A stretch of DNA of 64,000 bases from Alphaproteobacteria bacterium (GTDB lineage Bacteria > Pseudomonadota > Alphaproteobacteria > Micropepsales > Micropepsaceae): the NCBI GenBank assembly GCA_947474645.1, contig CANJJD010000013.1, positions 1 to 64,000 on the forward strand. Direction: 5' to 3'. Under the pieces are notes generated by a model that was not told the DNA's origin, made no database searches, and saw only the letters and a list, made by a program, of their open reading frames with translations. Numbering within the stretch: position 1 is the stretch's first letter; each line of letters begins with the position of its first letter. A program made the translations under genes and the position numbers. Of the stretch, positions 1-36,258 are shown one piece after another.

Positions 1-516
1 ATCGCCGACCAGGCGCGCACCATCCGTATCCCGGTGCACATGATCGAGACCATCAACAAGCTGGTGCGCACTTCGCGCCAGATGCTGCATGAGATCGGCC
101 GCGAGCCCACCCCGGAAGAGCTGGCTGAACGGTTGGCGATGCCGCTGGAAAAGGTCCGCAAGGTCCTGAAGATCGCCAAGGAGCCGATCAGCCTCGAAAC
201 GCCCATCGGCGACGAGGAAGACAGCCATCTGGGCGACTTCATCCAGGACCCCAATGTGGTGCTGCCGATCGATGCCGCCATCCAGGCCAATTTGCGCGAA
301 ACCACCACCCGCGTGCTGGCGACCCTGACGCCGCGCGAGGAACGTGTGCTGCGCATGCGCTTCGGCATCGGCATGAACACCGACCATACGCTGGAAGAAG
401 TCGGCCAGCAGTTCAGCGTGACCCGCGAGCGTATTCGCCAGATCGAAGCCAAGGCGCTGCGCAAGCTCAAGCATCCCTCGCGCTCGCGCAAACTGCGGTC
501 GTTCCTGGACAACTGA
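1..516 (+). CDS. rpoD: RNA polymerase sigma-70 factor RpoD, C-terminal part (5' end outside window)
   Basis: Housekeeping sigma factor; it directs core RNA polymerase to -35/-10 promoters. The frame is open from base 1 and gives 171 residues: the end of region 2.4 (RTIRIPVHM), region 3, and an intact region 4 with the -35-binding helix-turn-helix ([20 protein letters not shown]). The gene ends inside panD's start (TGATG overlap). The missing N-terminal part lies upstream of the window. The family is certain; the conserved RTIRIPVHM to LRKLKHP stretch is typical of primary sigma factors rather than heat-shock or ECF types. Confidence 0.95.
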
Positions 517-11815: not shown

Positions 11816-12421
11816 CTAACCGGCTGATTTCATGTGATATTTCTGGTATCCCCGGTCTATCTGCAGCCGGTAGAGAAAACGGATGCGCTGCCACAGATTC
11901 TGCCCGAAACGGGCGGCATGCAACATGGGGTAAAGCTCGGCCAGCCGAGTCTTCAAAACGGCGGTATCGGCGCCGGGCGGCACATGGTCATTCAGCACAA
12001 TGTAGGGCGAGGCGGCCGACAGGAAGATGGGGATGCCGCGCGCCATCGTGCGCGCCGCGTAAGCAATGAAGGCCGGGCGCAGCACCGCGGCTTCGCCGCC
12101 CAGGATCACCATGTGCATGCCATAGGGCGCAGCTTTCCAGGCGGCGGGCATCTCCGACGGCGCCCGGCGCATCACCAGCACGCCGCTCAGGTCCGGCCGC
12201 CAGTCATCGGTCATGTCGTCGAACAATCGCCAGCCGCACAGGAATTCGCGGCAGACGCCGGGCCGCTTGTCATAGATGCCGCAACCCTTGGCGCCCAGAT
12301 GCGGGCAAGGCACCCGCGCCGCCTTCTTCAATTCCGGGTCCGCGATCTTCAGGTCAATGCAGCAGGCGGTGCAGGGCCCGCATTGGCGCCCACTTAGCAA
12401 GGATTTGTCCAGCCGGATCAT
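11816..12421 (-). CDS. YkgJ-type cysteine cluster protein
   Basis: A 201-residue protein with the metal-binding Cys pattern of the YkgJ/FliB-like family near the N-terminus: Cys14, Cys17, Cys20, Cys21, Cys39, Cys47 (CGIYDKRPGVCREF) and Cys62. Likely binds zinc or iron; biochemical role unknown. The start ATG overlaps the plsC stop (ATGA), so it is translationally coupled to plsC; longer upstream readings would lie inside plsC. Confidence 0.75.
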   Translation of the reverse strand: MIRLDKSLLSGRQCGPCTACCIDLKIADPELKKAARVPCPHLGAKGCGIYDKRPGVCREFLCGWRLFDDMTDDWRPDLSGVLVMRRAPSEMPAAWKAAPYGMHMVILGGEAAVLRPAFIAYAARTMARGIPIFLSAASPYIVLNDHVPPGADTAVLKTRLAELYPMLHAARFGQNLWQRIRFLYRLQIDRGYQKYHMKSAG

Positions 12422-25245: not shown

Positions 25246-25617
25246 TTACTTGAGGCTCGCCATGTAGGCGGACACATCGGCCTGCTGCTTTTTGCTGCTG
25301 ATCCCGGCAAAGGCCATCTTGGTGCCGGGCACCATGCGGGCGGGGCCGGCCACCCACTTGGACAGGGTGGCGTCGGTCCAGGTGATGCCGGATTTCTGCA
25401 GCGGCGCCGAATAGGCAAAGCCGGGGCGGGTGGCGGCCTTGCGGCCCACGATCCCGAACAGGTTGGGGCCCAGGCCGTCGCCGCCGCCCTTTTCGGTGGT
25501 GTGGCAGACGGCACAGCGCTTGAACACGGCCTCGCCGGCCTTGGCGTCGCCGGCGGCATTGGCCGCCAGGGTGGATGCGGCCAGCAGCGCCAGCGCGATG
25601 AAACTGTTGCGAAGCAT
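25246..25617 (-). CDS. Class I c-type cytochrome (cytochrome c2 / c556-like)
   Basis: 123 residues: cleavable signal peptide (about 1-21, ending LAANA), haem motif CAVCH at 35-39 and axial Met101 in GTKMAF. The spacing and the LGPNLFGIVGRKAA segment match mitochondrial-type cytochrome c / c2. Periplasmic electron carrier. Follows cfa on the same strand with 95 bases between. I start at MLRNSF because the signal peptide begins there. Confidence 0.9.
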   Translation of the reverse strand: MLRNSFIALALLAASTLAANAAGDAKAGEAVFKRCAVCHTTEKGGGDGLGPNLFGIVGRKAATRPGFAYSAPLQKSGITWTDATLSKWVAGPARMVPGTKMAFAGISSKKQQADVSAYMASLK

Positions 25618-25712: not shown

Positions 25713-26879
25713 TCAGGCGTTGACCAGCTCCACCTGCAACACATCGGTGCGCGCCACTTCGAAGGTCGCGGCGCAGATTCCCAGGTAGAATTCCCAGTTG
25801 CGCAGGAATTGCTGGTCATGGCCCAGGGCCCTGATCTGGGGTTCGGCGGCCTGCATCCGCACCAGCCATTCGCGCAAGGTGCGGGCATAGTCCTTGCCGA
25901 AGCCGAAGGCGCCGGCGAATTTCAGGCCGGCCCTTTCGGCTTCTTCGCGGAAGCGCGACAGGCTGGGCAGCATGCCGCCCGGGAATACATAATGGCGGAC
26001 GAAATCGCTGCGGGTGCGATAGCCGGCGAAGAACTCGTCCCGGATGGTGATGGTCTGGATAACGGCGCGGCCGCCGCGCTTCAGCCGTTCAGCCACCGTG
26101 GCGAAATAGGCCGGCCAGTAATGCTCGCCCACCGCTTCGAACATCTCGATGGAGACGATGTTGTCGAAGCTGCCTTTGCAGCGGCGATAATCCTGAAGCT
26201 GGATGTCGGCGGCGGCGCCCAATCGCGCGGTGGCGAATTTGTGCTGGGCCGGTGAAATGGTCAGGCCGGTGACGTGGTGGTTGTCGGCGGCGGCGCGCTC
26301 GGCAAAGCCGCCCCAGCCGCAGCCGATCTCCAGCACATTGGCTTTCTTCTCGGTGAATTTGGACAGGATGCGCTCATACTTGTTCTGCTGGGCGCGATAG
26401 AGCTCGTCGGTGCCGTTATACAGCGCCGAGGAATAGGTCATGCTCTTGTCCAGCCACAGCGAATAGAAATCGTTGCCGACGTCGTAATGATCCTTGATGT
26501 TGCGCGCCGATCCGGAAATCGAATTGCGCCGCACCAGCGCATTGTGAATCACAAAGCCGATGCGGTTGAAGATATTGCCGTCCGAGAAATTCGAGAAGTG
26601 ATCCAGGTTGAGCAGGAACAGGCTCACCAGCCGCTCGACGCTGTCGCTGTCCCAGGCGCCGGCGATATATTCCTCGCCCAGCCCGATATCGCCGCGCGCC
26701 ATGATCCGGCGCAGCACGTCCCAGTCATGGATGTGAAAACGCGCCTCCGGCCCCGGATGGACGCCCTTGTGGACGCTCACCTCGCCATTGGGGGCGATGA
26801 AGGTCAGGGTGCCGTACTCCAGCGAGTTCATCGCCTTGCGCCAGCTTTTTTCGATATAGGAGGCAGGGATCAGGGACAT
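25713..26879 (-). CDS. cfa: Cyclopropane-fatty-acyl-phospholipid synthase family
   Basis: Methylenates unsaturated acyl chains of membrane phospholipids with SAM. 388 residues; N-terminal lipid-binding region, SAM loop VLEIGCGWGGFAE, HYDVGNDFYSLWLDKSMTYS and the VSIEMFEAVGEHYWPAYF segment. Product could be a cyclopropane or another methylated fatty acid; close homologues in the singlet-oxygen regulons of this class make furan or modified fatty acids. Directly follows the FAD gene. Confidence 0.9.
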   Translation of the reverse strand: MSLIPASYIEKSWRKAMNSLEYGTLTFIAPNGEVSVHKGVHPGPEARFHIHDWDVLRRIMARGDIGLGEEYIAGAWDSDSVERLVSLFLLNLDHFSNFSDGNIFNRIGFVIHNALVRRNSISGSARNIKDHYDVGNDFYSLWLDKSMTYSSALYNGTDELYRAQQNKYERILSKFTEKKANVLEIGCGWGGFAERAAADNHHVTGLTISPAQHKFATARLGAAADIQLQDYRRCKGSFDNIVSIEMFEAVGEHYWPAYFATVAERLKRGGRAVIQTITIRDEFFAGYRTRSDFVRHYVFPGGMLPSLSRFREEAERAGLKFAGAFGFGKDYARTLREWLVRMQAAEPQIRALGHDQQFLRNWEFYLGICAATFEVARTDVLQVELVNA

Positions 26880-26921: not shown

Positions 26922-28280
26922 TTAAAACAATTCGGCCGGGACCGGACCGGGTGCCTGGAAGCCCGGCAGCATGACCGGCGGGCGCGCCTTTTGTTGTGGC
27001 GCATCGGGTTTGACGGCGGCATCGCTGTCCCACGGGATGCGCGCACCCAGGCCTTGCGCCACCCGGACCGCGCTGGCCAGGCCGTCCTCGTGGAAGCCGT
27101 GGCCCAGATGGGCGCCGGCGAACCAGGTGCCCTGGCGGCCCTGCAGCGCGGCGATGCGCCCCTGGGCGGCCATGGCGGCCTCGTCGAACACCGGATGGTC
27201 GAACTCGGCCCGGTCGAACACCAGGTGGTCCGGAATGTCGCGCTTGGGATTGAGGCTGACGAACAGCGGGTATTTCTGGTCGATGCCCTGCAGCAGGTTC
27301 ATCCAGTAGGTCACGGTTATCTTGGGGTGGAGAATGTCTCCATCTGAAACGTAGTTCCAGCTTGCCCAGCAGCGCCGGCGGCGCGGCATGATGCTTTCGT
27401 CGCGGTGCAGGACGGCGATGTTCTTCTGGTAGCGGAAACAGGACAGCGCGGCCTGTTCTTCCCGGTCCACATCCTTCAGCAGCGCCAGTGTCTCGTCACC
27501 ATGGCTGGCCATCACGACCTGGTCATAGACCTCGGTGCCGCCCTGGGAATCCTTGACCTGCACCTTCCCATCGTGGCGCGTCACTGCCACCGCGGCACAA
27601 TTGGTGCGGATGCGATGCGCAAAGGGCGCGGTAAGGCGGCGAACATATTCCTGGCTGCCGCCGGTGACGGTGCGCCATTGCGGCTGCCCGGTGAAGGACA
27701 TCAGGTGATGATTGGCGAAGAACCGCACCAAGGTGCGGGCCGGGAAGTTCATCATCTCGCAGGGCGGGCAGCTCCAGATCGCGCCCGACATGGGCAGCAG
27801 ATAAAAGCGCCGGAACCAGTCACCCAGGCCCAGCTTGCGGATCAACCCTTCGACGCTGAGTTCGGGATGGCGCTCGACCGTTTCCTGCGCCCTGGCGTTG
27901 AATTTGAAAACGTCGCGCACCAAGAGGCCGAAGCGGGGCCGCAGCAGGTTGCGGCGCTGGCCGATCACCGAGTCCAGGTCCTTGAGGCCCCATTCCAGCC
28001 AGCCGTCGCGGATGGAGGCGGCGAAGGTCATGTCGCTGGCATGGGTGGGCACGCCCAGATGGGCGAACAGGCCGGACAGGTTGGGATAGTTGGGGCAGTT
28101 GAAGACGATGAAGCCGGTATCGACGGGGATCGCCTTGCCGTCATAGTCCAAGGTCACGGTGCGGCTGTGCCCCCCGATCCGGCCGGCCTTTTCATAGACA
28201 GTGATGTCGTGGTCGGGATTCAGCAAAAAGGCGCTGCCCAGCCCCGAAATTCCCGTCCCGATAATAGCGATCCTGGCCAT
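26922..28280 (-). CDS. FAD-dependent amine-oxidase-type oxidoreductase
   Basis: 452 residues. N-terminal FAD loop GTGISGLGSAFLL, YEKAGRIGGHSRTV and the VDTGFIVFN segment typical of the protein that precedes cfa in many proteobacteria. Co-transcribed with cfa (42-base gap). The DUF1365 gene that usually lies between the two is absent here. The -10 of its TGATCC-type promoter is only 6 bases before ATG, so the message may be leaderless. Confidence 0.85.
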   Translation of the reverse strand: MARIAIIGTGISGLGSAFLLNPDHDITVYEKAGRIGGHSRTVTLDYDGKAIPVDTGFIVFNCPNYPNLSGLFAHLGVPTHASDMTFAASIRDGWLEWGLKDLDSVIGQRRNLLRPRFGLLVRDVFKFNARAQETVERHPELSVEGLIRKLGLGDWFRRFYLLPMSGAIWSCPPCEMMNFPARTLVRFFANHHLMSFTGQPQWRTVTGGSQEYVRRLTAPFAHRIRTNCAAVAVTRHDGKVQVKDSQGGTEVYDQVVMASHGDETLALLKDVDREEQAALSCFRYQKNIAVLHRDESIMPRRRRCWASWNYVSDGDILHPKITVTYWMNLLQGIDQKYPLFVSLNPKRDIPDHLVFDRAEFDHPVFDEAAMAAQGRIAALQGRQGTWFAGAHLGHGFHEDGLASAVRVAQGLGARIPWDSDAAVKPDAPQQKARPPVMLPGFQAPGPVPAELF

Positions 28281-28285
28281 TGGAT

Positions 28286-28315
28286 CAGTTACGCCCCCTT
28301 GCGATCCCCGGATCA
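28286..28315 (-). promoter_or_regulatory. RpoE/ChrR-type promoter for the FAD gene and cfa
   Basis: On the minus strand TGATCC (28310-28315) and TAACTG (28286-28291) are separated by exactly 18 bases. This is the -35/-10 form known for Rhodobacter RpoE (TGATCC...TAA). Transcription would start at or next to the ATG. Confidence 0.6.
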
Positions 28316-28327
28316 CCTGAGCCTAAT

Positions 28328-28357
28328 TGATCCGGACGCCGCTGGCGCGCGTAAAAA
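28328..28357 (+). promoter_or_regulatory. RpoE/ChrR-type promoter for the DUF2177 gene
   Basis: TGATCC (28328-28333), 18 bases, TAAAAA (28352-28357), then an AGGAAAGGGA ribosome site and ATG at 28379. The spacing is identical to that of the divergent promoter next to it. Confidence 0.65.
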
Positions 28358-28378
28358 ACACGCAGGAAAGGGACCCCG

Positions 28379-28780
28379 ATGGCCTATCTGATTGCCTATG
28401 GCGTGTGCGTTCTGGTGATGGGCGGGCTTGACTTCCTCTGGCTGACCAACACGTCCAAGGCGCTGTACCAGAAGGACCTGGGCGCGCTGCTGGCCCCCGA
28501 CCCCAACATGGTGGTCGCGGTGATTTTCTACCTGCTCTACATTGTGGGCATACAGATTTTTGCCGTGCGGCCCGCGCTGGAATCGGGCGACTGGAAAACC
28601 GCAGCCTTGTTCGGTGCGCTGTTCGGCTTCTTCACCTACGCCACCTACGACCTCACCAACATGGCGACCATGAAGGTGTGGACGCTGCGCGTGACCCTGC
28701 TGGACATTGCCTGGGGCACCATCCTGACAGGGATCACGGCCAGTGCAGGCGCTTTCGCCGCCTTACGGTTCGTGAAGTAG
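28379..28780 (+). CDS. DUF2177 family membrane protein
   Basis: 133 residues, four membrane segments. Family features: GGLDFLWLTNTSKALYQKDLG at the first loop and FFTYATYDLTNMATMKVW. DUF2177 genes cluster with cfa and its FAD partner in photooxidative-stress regulons; here the gene is divergent from them and shares their promoter type. Molecular function unknown. Confidence 0.83.
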   Translation: MAYLIAYGVCVLVMGGLDFLWLTNTSKALYQKDLGALLAPDPNMVVAVIFYLLYIVGIQIFAVRPALESGDWKTAALFGALFGFFTYATYDLTNMATMKVWTLRVTLLDIAWGTILTGITASAGAFAALRFVK

Positions 28781-34423: not shown

Positions 34424-35212
34424 TTAAGCAGCTTCGCGCGCGACAGGATGGAAGAACAACGCCTGGCCCACCGTGGCCTGCACCGTCTCGGGCAGGAACG
34501 GCTTGGCAATCAGATACGTCGGCTCGGGCCGTTCGCCGGTGAGAAGTTTTTCCGGATAGGCGGTGATGAAGATCACCGGGATGTCGAACGAGGCCAGGAT
34601 TTCGCTGACCGCGTCGATGCCGCTGCCGCCTTCGCCCAGGTTGATATCCGCCAGCACCAGGCCGGGACGTTCGGACTTGGCCTTGGCCACCGCATCGTCC
34701 TTGGTGGCAGCCACGGCGACCACCTTGTGGCCCAGCTCGGTGACCAGGTTTTCCAGGTCGAGCGCGATGATCGGCTCGTCCTCGATGATCAGCACCCGGC
34801 TGGCCAACTGGCTGTCGATGGTCTTCTGGGCGCCCAGGATGGCGGCTTCCACCTCTTCGGGGGTCTCATCCACGATGAAGGCGGCTTCCTCCAGGCTGAA
34901 GGCCTCCACGGCGGTCAAAAGCAGGGCCGCCCGCTTGGTGGCGGACAGGGACTTGAGGCGGCCTTCGGGGCTGTGGCTGGCGGCCGGGGCCTCATTGTCG
35001 AAATGCTCGGCGCCGGACTGCCAGATGGCATGGAAGATCCGGTACAGGCCGACCCGGGGGGGCACGCCCTCGATCAGGCTCTGGTCACCCGCCAACAGCG
35101 CGGTCAGGGCGGCCCGCACATGGGCGTACCCGCTGGACTGGGATCCCCTTAAAGCCCTGGCATAGCGGCGCAAATAGGGAAGATGCGGCGCAAGGGTCTG
35201 CGACATACTCAT
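34424..35212 (-). CDS. phyR: General stress response anti-anti-sigma regulator PhyR
   Basis: 262 residues: N-terminal sigma-like domain (about 1-130, sigma2-like then sigma4-like SLEEAAFIVDETPEEVEAAI) fused to a receiver (about 138-255) with Glu144, Asp145, phospho-acceptor Asp189 (LVLADINLG), Thr217 and Lys237. When phosphorylated PhyR binds NepR and frees EcfG. The ATG at 35212 has GAAGGAG 7 bases upstream; a longer reading has no ribosome site. Confidence 0.95.
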   Translation of the reverse strand: MSMSQTLAPHLPYLRRYARALRGSQSSGYAHVRAALTALLAGDQSLIEGVPPRVGLYRIFHAIWQSGAEHFDNEAPAASHSPEGRLKSLSATKRAALLLTAVEAFSLEEAAFIVDETPEEVEAAILGAQKTIDSQLASRVLIIEDEPIIALDLENLVTELGHKVVAVAATKDDAVAKAKSERPGLVLADINLGEGGSGIDAVSEILASFDIPVIFITAYPEKLLTGERPEPTYLIAKPFLPETVQATVGQALFFHPVAREAA

Positions 35213-35248
35213 GGAAAGGCTCCTTCGGCCCAAGAAAAGCTCAGGGGA

Positions 35249-35275
35249 GGAACTTACGCCAGTCAAAAAAGTTCC
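35249..35275. promoter_or_regulatory. Palindromic, two-way EcfG-type promoter (phyR side and nepR side)
   Basis: GGAAC (35249-35253), 17 bases, GTTCC (35271-35275). Because the ends are inverse complements, it reads GGAAC-N17-GTT on both strands. Leftward it fits phyR (start 35212); rightward it could add to nepR transcription. Confidence 0.6.
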
Positions 35276-35285
35276 CTAGCCTGCC

Positions 35286-35310
35286 GGAACCATCACGAAA
35301 TCCGTTCGTT
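35286..35310 (+). promoter_or_regulatory. EcfG-type promoter of nepR-ecfG
   Basis: GGAAC (35286-35290), 16 bases, CGTT (35307-35310). Perfect consensus. It leaves a leader of about 95 bases before the nepR ATG. Autoregulation of ecfG by EcfG is the known pattern. Confidence 0.8.
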
Positions 35311-35413
35311 TGGAACCTTGGGAAGGGAACTGGTATGGGGCAGAGACGTCGAAATAAGGCGGATTTCCGGGCTTTTCCGGGCGCTGCCGCACCAGGAAAT
35401 GGCGTGAACAGAT

Positions 35414-35617
35414 ATGACGCAGCAATGGGAAATGGACGTGGCTGAAGAAAAGCCCTCCGAAAAGGCCCGGGCGATCCGGGCGCGCCAGCGCGCGATCGGC
35501 CGCGAGCTGCGCCGCATGTATGACGATGTCGCACAGGAACAGGTGCCGGACGATTTTATGGACCTGCTGCGCCAAATTGATGAAGCTGAGGACAAGGGGG
35601 GCAAGAAGGTATCGTGA
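35414..35617 (+). CDS. nepR: Anti-sigma factor NepR
   Basis: 67 residues with the invariant NepR core IGRELRRMYDDVAQEQVPDD followed by F-M-D-L-L-R-Q-I-D, two helices that clamp EcfG and are in turn bound by phosphorylated PhyR. Divergent from phyR. The stop overlaps the ecfG start (TGATG), giving translational coupling of sigma and anti-sigma. Confidence 0.95.
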   Translation: MTQQWEMDVAEEKPSEKARAIRARQRAIGRELRRMYDDVAQEQVPDDFMDLLRQIDEAEDKGGKKVS

Positions 35618-36258
35618 TGCCCACATCCGCCCCCTCTGCCGCCACCCAGAAGCCGGAAAATCCCGACTTCAAATCCGAACTGCTTGGCCTGGTCCCGTTC
35701 CTGCGCGCCTTTGCCCGCTCGCTGACCGGCAACCAGGAAGCCGCCGACGACTTGGCGCAGGAAACGCTGGTCAAGGCCTGGCAGAGCCGCTCCAGCTTCA
35801 TCCCGGGCACCAATCTCAAGGCCTGGCTATTCACCATCCTGCGCAACCAGTTCTACTCGGACCGGCGCCGTGCCTGGCGCCAGGCGCCCTGGGACCAGGA
35901 TGCCGCCGAACGCATTCCCGGCGGCGGCGAGGACCAGGTCCATTCGGCCGAACTGTCCGACACGGTGCGCGCCCTCAAGCATCTGTCCGACGAACAGCGC
36001 GAAGCGCTGATTTTGGTGGGCGCCGGCGGCTTTTCCTATGAAGACGCCGCGGCCATCTGCAAATGCGCCGTGGGCACGGTGAAGAGCCGGGTTGCCCGCG
36101 CGCGCAAGACCTTGATAGAGATTCTGGACGGCAGCGACACGCTGAATGATGTTTCCCGTCCTGCCGGTGGGGATGCCGCTCGTGAAATCATGGCGCAGCT
36201 TGACCAGCTCAGCCCCGGACGCTCCGACCAGGTCGGCGGAAAAAAGCGCCTCAAATAA
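35617..36258 (+). CDS. ecfG: General stress ECF sigma factor EcfG
   Basis: 213 residues. Sigma2 about 25-90 (DDLAQETLVKAWQSR, LFTILRNQFYSDRRR), sigma4 about 112-170 (LSDEQREALILVGAGGFSYE, AVGTVKSRVARARKTL). GGFSYEDAA is typical of the EcfG group. ATG at 35617 overlaps the nepR stop; a GTG three bases earlier is possible. Expected to recognise the GGAAC...GTT promoters listed here. Confidence 0.95.
   Translation: MPTSAPSAATQKPENPDFKSELLGLVPFLRAFARSLTGNQEAADDLAQETLVKAWQSRSSFIPGTNLKAWLFTILRNQFYSDRRRAWRQAPWDQDAAERIPGGGEDQVHSAELSDTVRALKHLSDEQREALILVGAGGFSYEDAAAICKCAVGTVKSRVARARKTLIEILDGSDTLNDVSRPAGGDAAREIMAQLDQLSPGRSDQVGGKKRLK

Follow-up and report, generated by a model that had tools for sequence, protein, structure and literature searches.

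The window, that is, the whole 64,000-nucleotide stretch of alphaproteobacterial (Micropepsaceae) DNA analysed here, harbored a leftward ufaD-cfa gene pair and a rightward DUF2177 gene, separated by a short intergenic region with one promoter per strand (Table 1). The product of the ufaD-type gene matched Amino_oxidase/NAD_binding_8, with a Rossmann motif (GTGISGLG) spanning residues 8-15. The neighbouring methyltransferase is assigned as a putative ufaM on the basis of its family and gene context, and none of the curated cyclopropane-synthase models scored over cut-off against it. It is probably co-transcribed with ufaD, given the short gap between the two genes, and the same ufaD-cfa order was found in two relatives (loci L115 and L116). 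The small cytochrome c gene is possibly the last gene of this operon and is perhaps also driven by the same motif. UfaD, UfaM, and UfaO are putative assignments throughout, made by domain matches plus context. Near the contig edge (window 100-474), a sigma-70 family gene was represented by its C-terminal part.

Table 1. Features of the divergent locus, in window coordinates.
Feature	Position	Strand	Remarks
Small cytochrome c gene	25246..25617	-	3' of cfa; position shared with L115 and L116
cfa/ufaM-type SAM-dependent fatty-acyl methyltransferase (CMAS) gene	25713..26879	-	42 nt after ufaD; CMAS match
ufaD-type FAD/NAD-binding amine oxidase-like desaturase gene	26922..28280	-	GTA-to-ATG gap of 9 nt, too short for a Shine-Dalgarno
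ECF11 (RpoE/ChrR-type) promoter of ufaD-cfa	28290..28315	-	-35 TGATCC 28315-28310, N15, -10 GCGTA 28294-28290; conserved in genus
ECF11 promoter of DUF2177 gene	28328..28353	+	-35 TGATCC 28328-28333, N15, -10 GCGTA 28349-28353
DUF2177 gene, predicted four-helix membrane protein	28379..28780	+	25 nt from GTA to ATG

As described in the initial annotation, TGATCC-N18-TAA was present on each strand, at 28315-28289 (-) and 28328-28354 (+), and the window contained three matches to this pattern compared with 0.07 expected from shuffles. The third match (12394-12420) was dropped as a promoter, being a coding coincidence in which the motif overlaps a start codon (ATGATCC). The exact element on each strand was TGATCC-N15-GCGTA, with the -35 boxes lying back to back, 12 bp apart. 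The leftward site (TGATCC-GGGGATCGCAAGGGG-GCGTA) and the rightward site (TGATCC-GGACGCCGCTGGCGC-GCGTA) both agreed perfectly with the RpoE promoter published for R. sphaeroides, TGATCC(N15)GCGTA (PMC5036791), in agreement with the promoter form originally proposed. The -10 element had been given as TAA and is corrected here to GCGTA or CGTA, because the base after GTA varies in relatives and TAA is thus only partly conserved. The motif was found 5' of ufaD in 16 of the 16 congeners with a compared gene start (one with CGATCC), and the DUF2177-side promoter was kept in the genus as well as in L115 and L116. On sequence grounds, the back-to-back pair of ECF11-type promoter sequences is confirmed as real, and their conservation is evident together with that of the ATG spacing, the motifs, the genes, and the sigma/anti-sigma pair. 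It is expected that RpoE transcribes from both promoters upon singlet-oxygen induction, with start sites predicted from the positions of the -10 boxes.

The initial annotation also stated that the window lacks rpoE-chrR and predicted such a pair elsewhere in the genome. Both statements held, since the ECF gene in the window (35614-36258) belongs to a PhyR/EcfG locus and an ECF11 sigma/ChrR pair with its own motif was found on contig C19. The genome (2.64 Mb, 54 contigs) encoded one ChrR (C19:42790-43416), which scored 173 bits against the curated cut-off of 124.5 (TIGR02451), also matched Cupin_7, and had the ChrR of the 2q1z/2z2s complexes as its best solved match; the His/Cys residues of its anti-sigma domain aligned with 2z2s. 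For the adjoining ECF sigma, the best solved match was RpoE from the same complexes (2q1z/2z2s; 1.8e-48), with the next-best match far behind (4.5e-21). The start of rpoE lay just behind TGATCC-N15-CCGTA (G000:C19:44060-44085), a promoter of the autoregulatory type, and its divergent neighbour was a DUF1365 gene, the family to which UfaO belongs (PMC7380195), with a facing TGATCT-N15-GCGTA.

Pattern searches of the whole genome with the strict form TGATCC-N16-CGTA yielded eight matches versus none in the reversed control. The motif-bearing genes comprised rpoE-chrR, ufaO, ufaD-cfa, DUF2177, msrA, and a second CMAS-type methyltransferase gene. Genes of the ufaD, ufaO (DUF1365), and ufaM types were all present under the ECF11 motif, and the view that cfa-type genes are regulon members agrees with the core regulon already described (PMC6852236, PMC7380195). 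The msrA gene (L042 783-1481 (-), G000:C4), with TGATCC-N15-GCGTA located 19 nt before its ATG, is a probable further member, and the second methyltransferase gene (L041 1549-2568 (+), G000:C3; motif C3:47552) had a 22-nt gap between the motif and its ATG. Strict matches on C11, C18, C22, C12, C5, and C9 were unsupported by position. An RpoHII cascade was not found, as the genome had a single RpoH gene without the motif, and the genome search found no photosynthetic reaction centre gene. In addition, the window harbored genes for a PhyR anti-anti-sigma response regulator and a nearby EcfG-kind ECF sigma (34424-36258), both of the general stress response, 6 kb from the promoters. Cross-talk between PhyR and RpoE is conceivable because the PhyR homolog of R. 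sphaeroides modestly affects RpoE activity (PMC5830050).

The pattern of two facing promoters was detected in 16 of 385 alphaproteobacterial genomes and was absent from the reversed control. At ten loci in other families it lay between ufaD and rpoE-chrR; in Rhizobium, Ciceribacter, and Asticcacaulis genomes, ufaM-ufaO-ufaD occupied one side of the promoters and rpoE-chrR-DUF2177 the other. The order rpoE-chrR-DUF2177 also occurred in Shinella, and the chrR-DUF2177 gaps measured 12-41 nt in five genomes. In the window and likewise in congener G031, the pattern lay between ufaD and DUF2177; congener G061 had two copies, one separating ufaO from rpoE-chrR and the second ufaD from DUF2177. Since most other families have the pair between ufaD and rpoE-chrR, a known unit seems to have been rearranged in the window. 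In the simplest history, the window's genus would have relocated rpoE-chrR together with ufaO and left ufaD opposite DUF2177. Single stop codons were seen inside the ufaD or DUF1365 matches of some congeners (L018 in G006, L098 in G031, and L102 in G428), and may mark pseudogenes or be end-of-match artefacts.

DUF2177 was present in 19 of 190 genomes of the class and absent from most. A set of 80 GTDB loci was selected for similarity to the window protein, and its fractions are therefore not estimates for the family; in 29 of these loci ufa or rpoE-chrR genes lay no more than 5 kb from DUF2177, and 12 carried the motif upstream, compared with 0.55% of random windows from the same loci. The remaining 68 genes had no motif directly upstream, and several of them came from phyla without an evident link. 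The recurring contexts were rpoE-chrR-DUF2177 operons, a position opposite ufaD, or a gene alone behind the motif. The low occurrence in the class and the frequent placement elsewhere might suggest that DUF2177 is a passenger that came to lie opposite ufaD by chance, with no role in the singlet-oxygen response. This reading is unlikely, given the existence of rpoE-chrR-DUF2177 operons and of five motif-bearing loci whose fetched flanks contain no ufa genes (L132, L146, L150, L153, and L158, including Roseibium species). Moreover, a Chlamydomonas DUF2177 gene shows strong SAK1-dependent singlet-oxygen induction along with DUF1365, CFA1, CFA2, and MSRA3 (PMC4067076), a parallel drawn from the annotations in a table of that study. 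Judged by its recurring gene contexts, DUF2177 is a recurrent member of the ECF11 module and is new beyond the known regulon.

The structural model of DUF2177 was a confident four-helix membrane bundle (pLDDT 95), with invariant residues including D18, W21, Y51, T89-Y90-D91, N94, T97, D109, and W112. A fold search with this model returned nothing informative (best Foldseek E 1.7), and the best VIA Z values of 5.7 (Mce-complex subunit) and 5.6 (FtsX) were within the range expected for helical bundles. This family without known function, mentioned in three papers retrieved by the literature search, becomes a candidate component of the singlet-oxygen/furan-fatty-acid response of bacteria and perhaps of algae.

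The purine-rich leader of the DUF2177 gene (AGGAAAGGGA) was Shine-Dalgarno-like. For ufaD, the distance from the -10 element to the ATG at 28280 had been given as 6 bases, and is actually 8 after TAA and 9 after GTA. An upstream in-frame GTG sits at the -35, and no later ufaD start is plausible because the Rossmann motif begins at residue 8. For one alphaproteobacterial ECF promoter, mapping placed the start site 6 bp past the -10 box (PMC3420878), so that the ufaD leader would measure between 0 and about 5 nt. The GTA-ATG gap of ufaD was 8-9 nt in seven of 16 congeners and 21-37 nt in the other nine; the long-gap genes mostly had Shine-Dalgarno-like leaders, and the short-gap ones had no room for them. 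On the protein tree, the short- or long-gap state switched three or more times, indicating that the ufaD spacing is labile.

In most congeners, ufaO started 7-9 nt past GTA, and several had the conserved domain directly behind the first ufaO ATG. An open in-frame rpoE ATG lay 8-10 nt after GTA in 17 of 18 congeners and in 15 of 19 loci outside the genus (from several families and not all independent, as some, such as the two Rhizobium, share a genus), compared with a chance level of about 0.6% per position further on. This frequency, far above chance, points to leaderless or near-leaderless messages. The RpoE of this genome (L001 2136-2765 (-), G000:C19) would thereby be extended at its N terminus by about 28 residues, ahead of the Met close to the solved R. 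sphaeroides start; the sequence of the extension varied between families, and the position of the initiating ATG was constant. In five close relatives, changes in the first 28 rpoE codons numbered 43, 38, and 81 at the three codon positions, a third-position bias as in translated sequence.

It is alternatively conceivable that the promoters are real and that the ATG near +1 of ufaD, rpoE, and ufaO is unused, with translation starting at a later codon, as was proposed for B. japonicum ecfF (PMC3420878). Further in-frame rpoE ATGs do occur 70-100 nt downstream, near where the solved R. sphaeroides RpoE begins. The biased codon changes in the extension, the rpoE ATG, which is in frame and open wherever it lies at 8-10 nt, and the ufaD and short ufaO proteins, which have no later start ahead of the conserved domain, make this quite improbable. 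The spacing therefore suggests that several regulon messages, including that of the sigma factor itself, start directly at the start codon. As such, the claim that ufaD transcription begins at its ATG gained comparative support and reaches beyond one gene, with its exact position relaxed to a predicted leader between 0 and about 5 nt long. Many messages of the class are leaderless, with 375 in Caulobacter and 171 in Sinorhizobium (PMC4117421, PMC3616915), making this mode ordinary here. A literature search did not find leaderless ECF11 messages, or their conservation at the sigma gene's own promoter, described, and the putative conserved near-zero leader of rpoE and ufaO is the new part. Taken jointly, and only tentatively, the ECF11 sigma mRNA may be leaderless by selection across Alphaproteobacteria (in the genus together with ufaO and often ufaD), adding about 25-30 residues to the sigma factor and allowing Shine-Dalgarno-free translation of the regulon in stress, and DUF2177 may be a so far overlooked, conserved component of a furan-fatty-acid/singlet-oxygen module that algae share. 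An apparently leaderless sigma message across much of the class bears on the translation of stress regulons and on the true starts of RpoE proteins.

That the two TGATCC boxes are a palindromic operator for a dimeric regulator and not two sigma promoters, as the inverted repeat CGGATCA-N12-TGATCCG formed by the -35 boxes might indicate, is highly improbable, because the box-to-box distance varies widely among genomes, the 15-bp spacing of TGATCC-NCGTA is nearly fixed, and single unpaired sites lie 5' of msrA and of a CMAS methyltransferase gene. The intergenic region is thus very probably a bidirectional ECF11 RpoE promoter, driving ufaD-cfa to the left, with a message from or near the ATG, and DUF2177 of the same module to the right. 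RpoE would normally be held by the zinc anti-sigma ChrR, and singlet oxygen or organic peroxides would lead to the loss of ChrR, freeing RpoE to transcribe in both directions. Leftward transcription would yield UfaD and the ufaM/cfa-type methyltransferase, which, together with the unlinked ufaO (DUF1365, opposite rpoE), could produce furan-containing fatty acids of the membrane; rightward transcription would yield the small membrane protein DUF2177. The leftward message would begin at the ufaD ATG or a few bases off and be translated without a Shine-Dalgarno sequence, and rpoE and ufaO would share this start arrangement. The kind of system, the promoter, and most of the genes are already known, and are now placed in a genome that lacks a photosynthetic reaction centre.

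Among the closest known systems is the core regulon of R. sphaeroides RpoE-ChrR (ECF11), which is alike in its promoter, its sigma/anti-sigma pair, and its furan-fatty-acid enzymes (PMC6852236, PMC7380195, PMC5830050). In R. sphaeroides, RSP1091-1087 (ufaD, ufaO) adjoin rpoE, and the ufaD operon and rpoE have neighbouring locus numbers (RSP1091, RSP1092), whereas here the unit is split in two, with ufaD-cfa opposite DUF2177 and ufaO opposite rpoE-chrR; the present genome further differs in including DUF2177, in having no phototrophic reaction centre, and in its single RpoH without the motif. In Rhodopseudomonas palustris (RPA2569-2571, ufaM-ufaO-ufaD; PMC7380195), ufaM is likewise clustered with ufaD, but ufaO lies outside the cluster here. 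The SAK1 singlet-oxygen set of Chlamydomonas (PMC4067076) similarly includes CFA-type methyltransferases, DUF1365, DUF2177, and MsrA, although in a eukaryote with an unrelated regulator. Moreover, the leaderless mRNAs of Caulobacter and Sinorhizobium (PMC4117421, PMC3616915) resemble the predicted messages in starting from AUG, whereas here a single regulon conserves the arrangement at its own promoters, that of the sigma gene among them.
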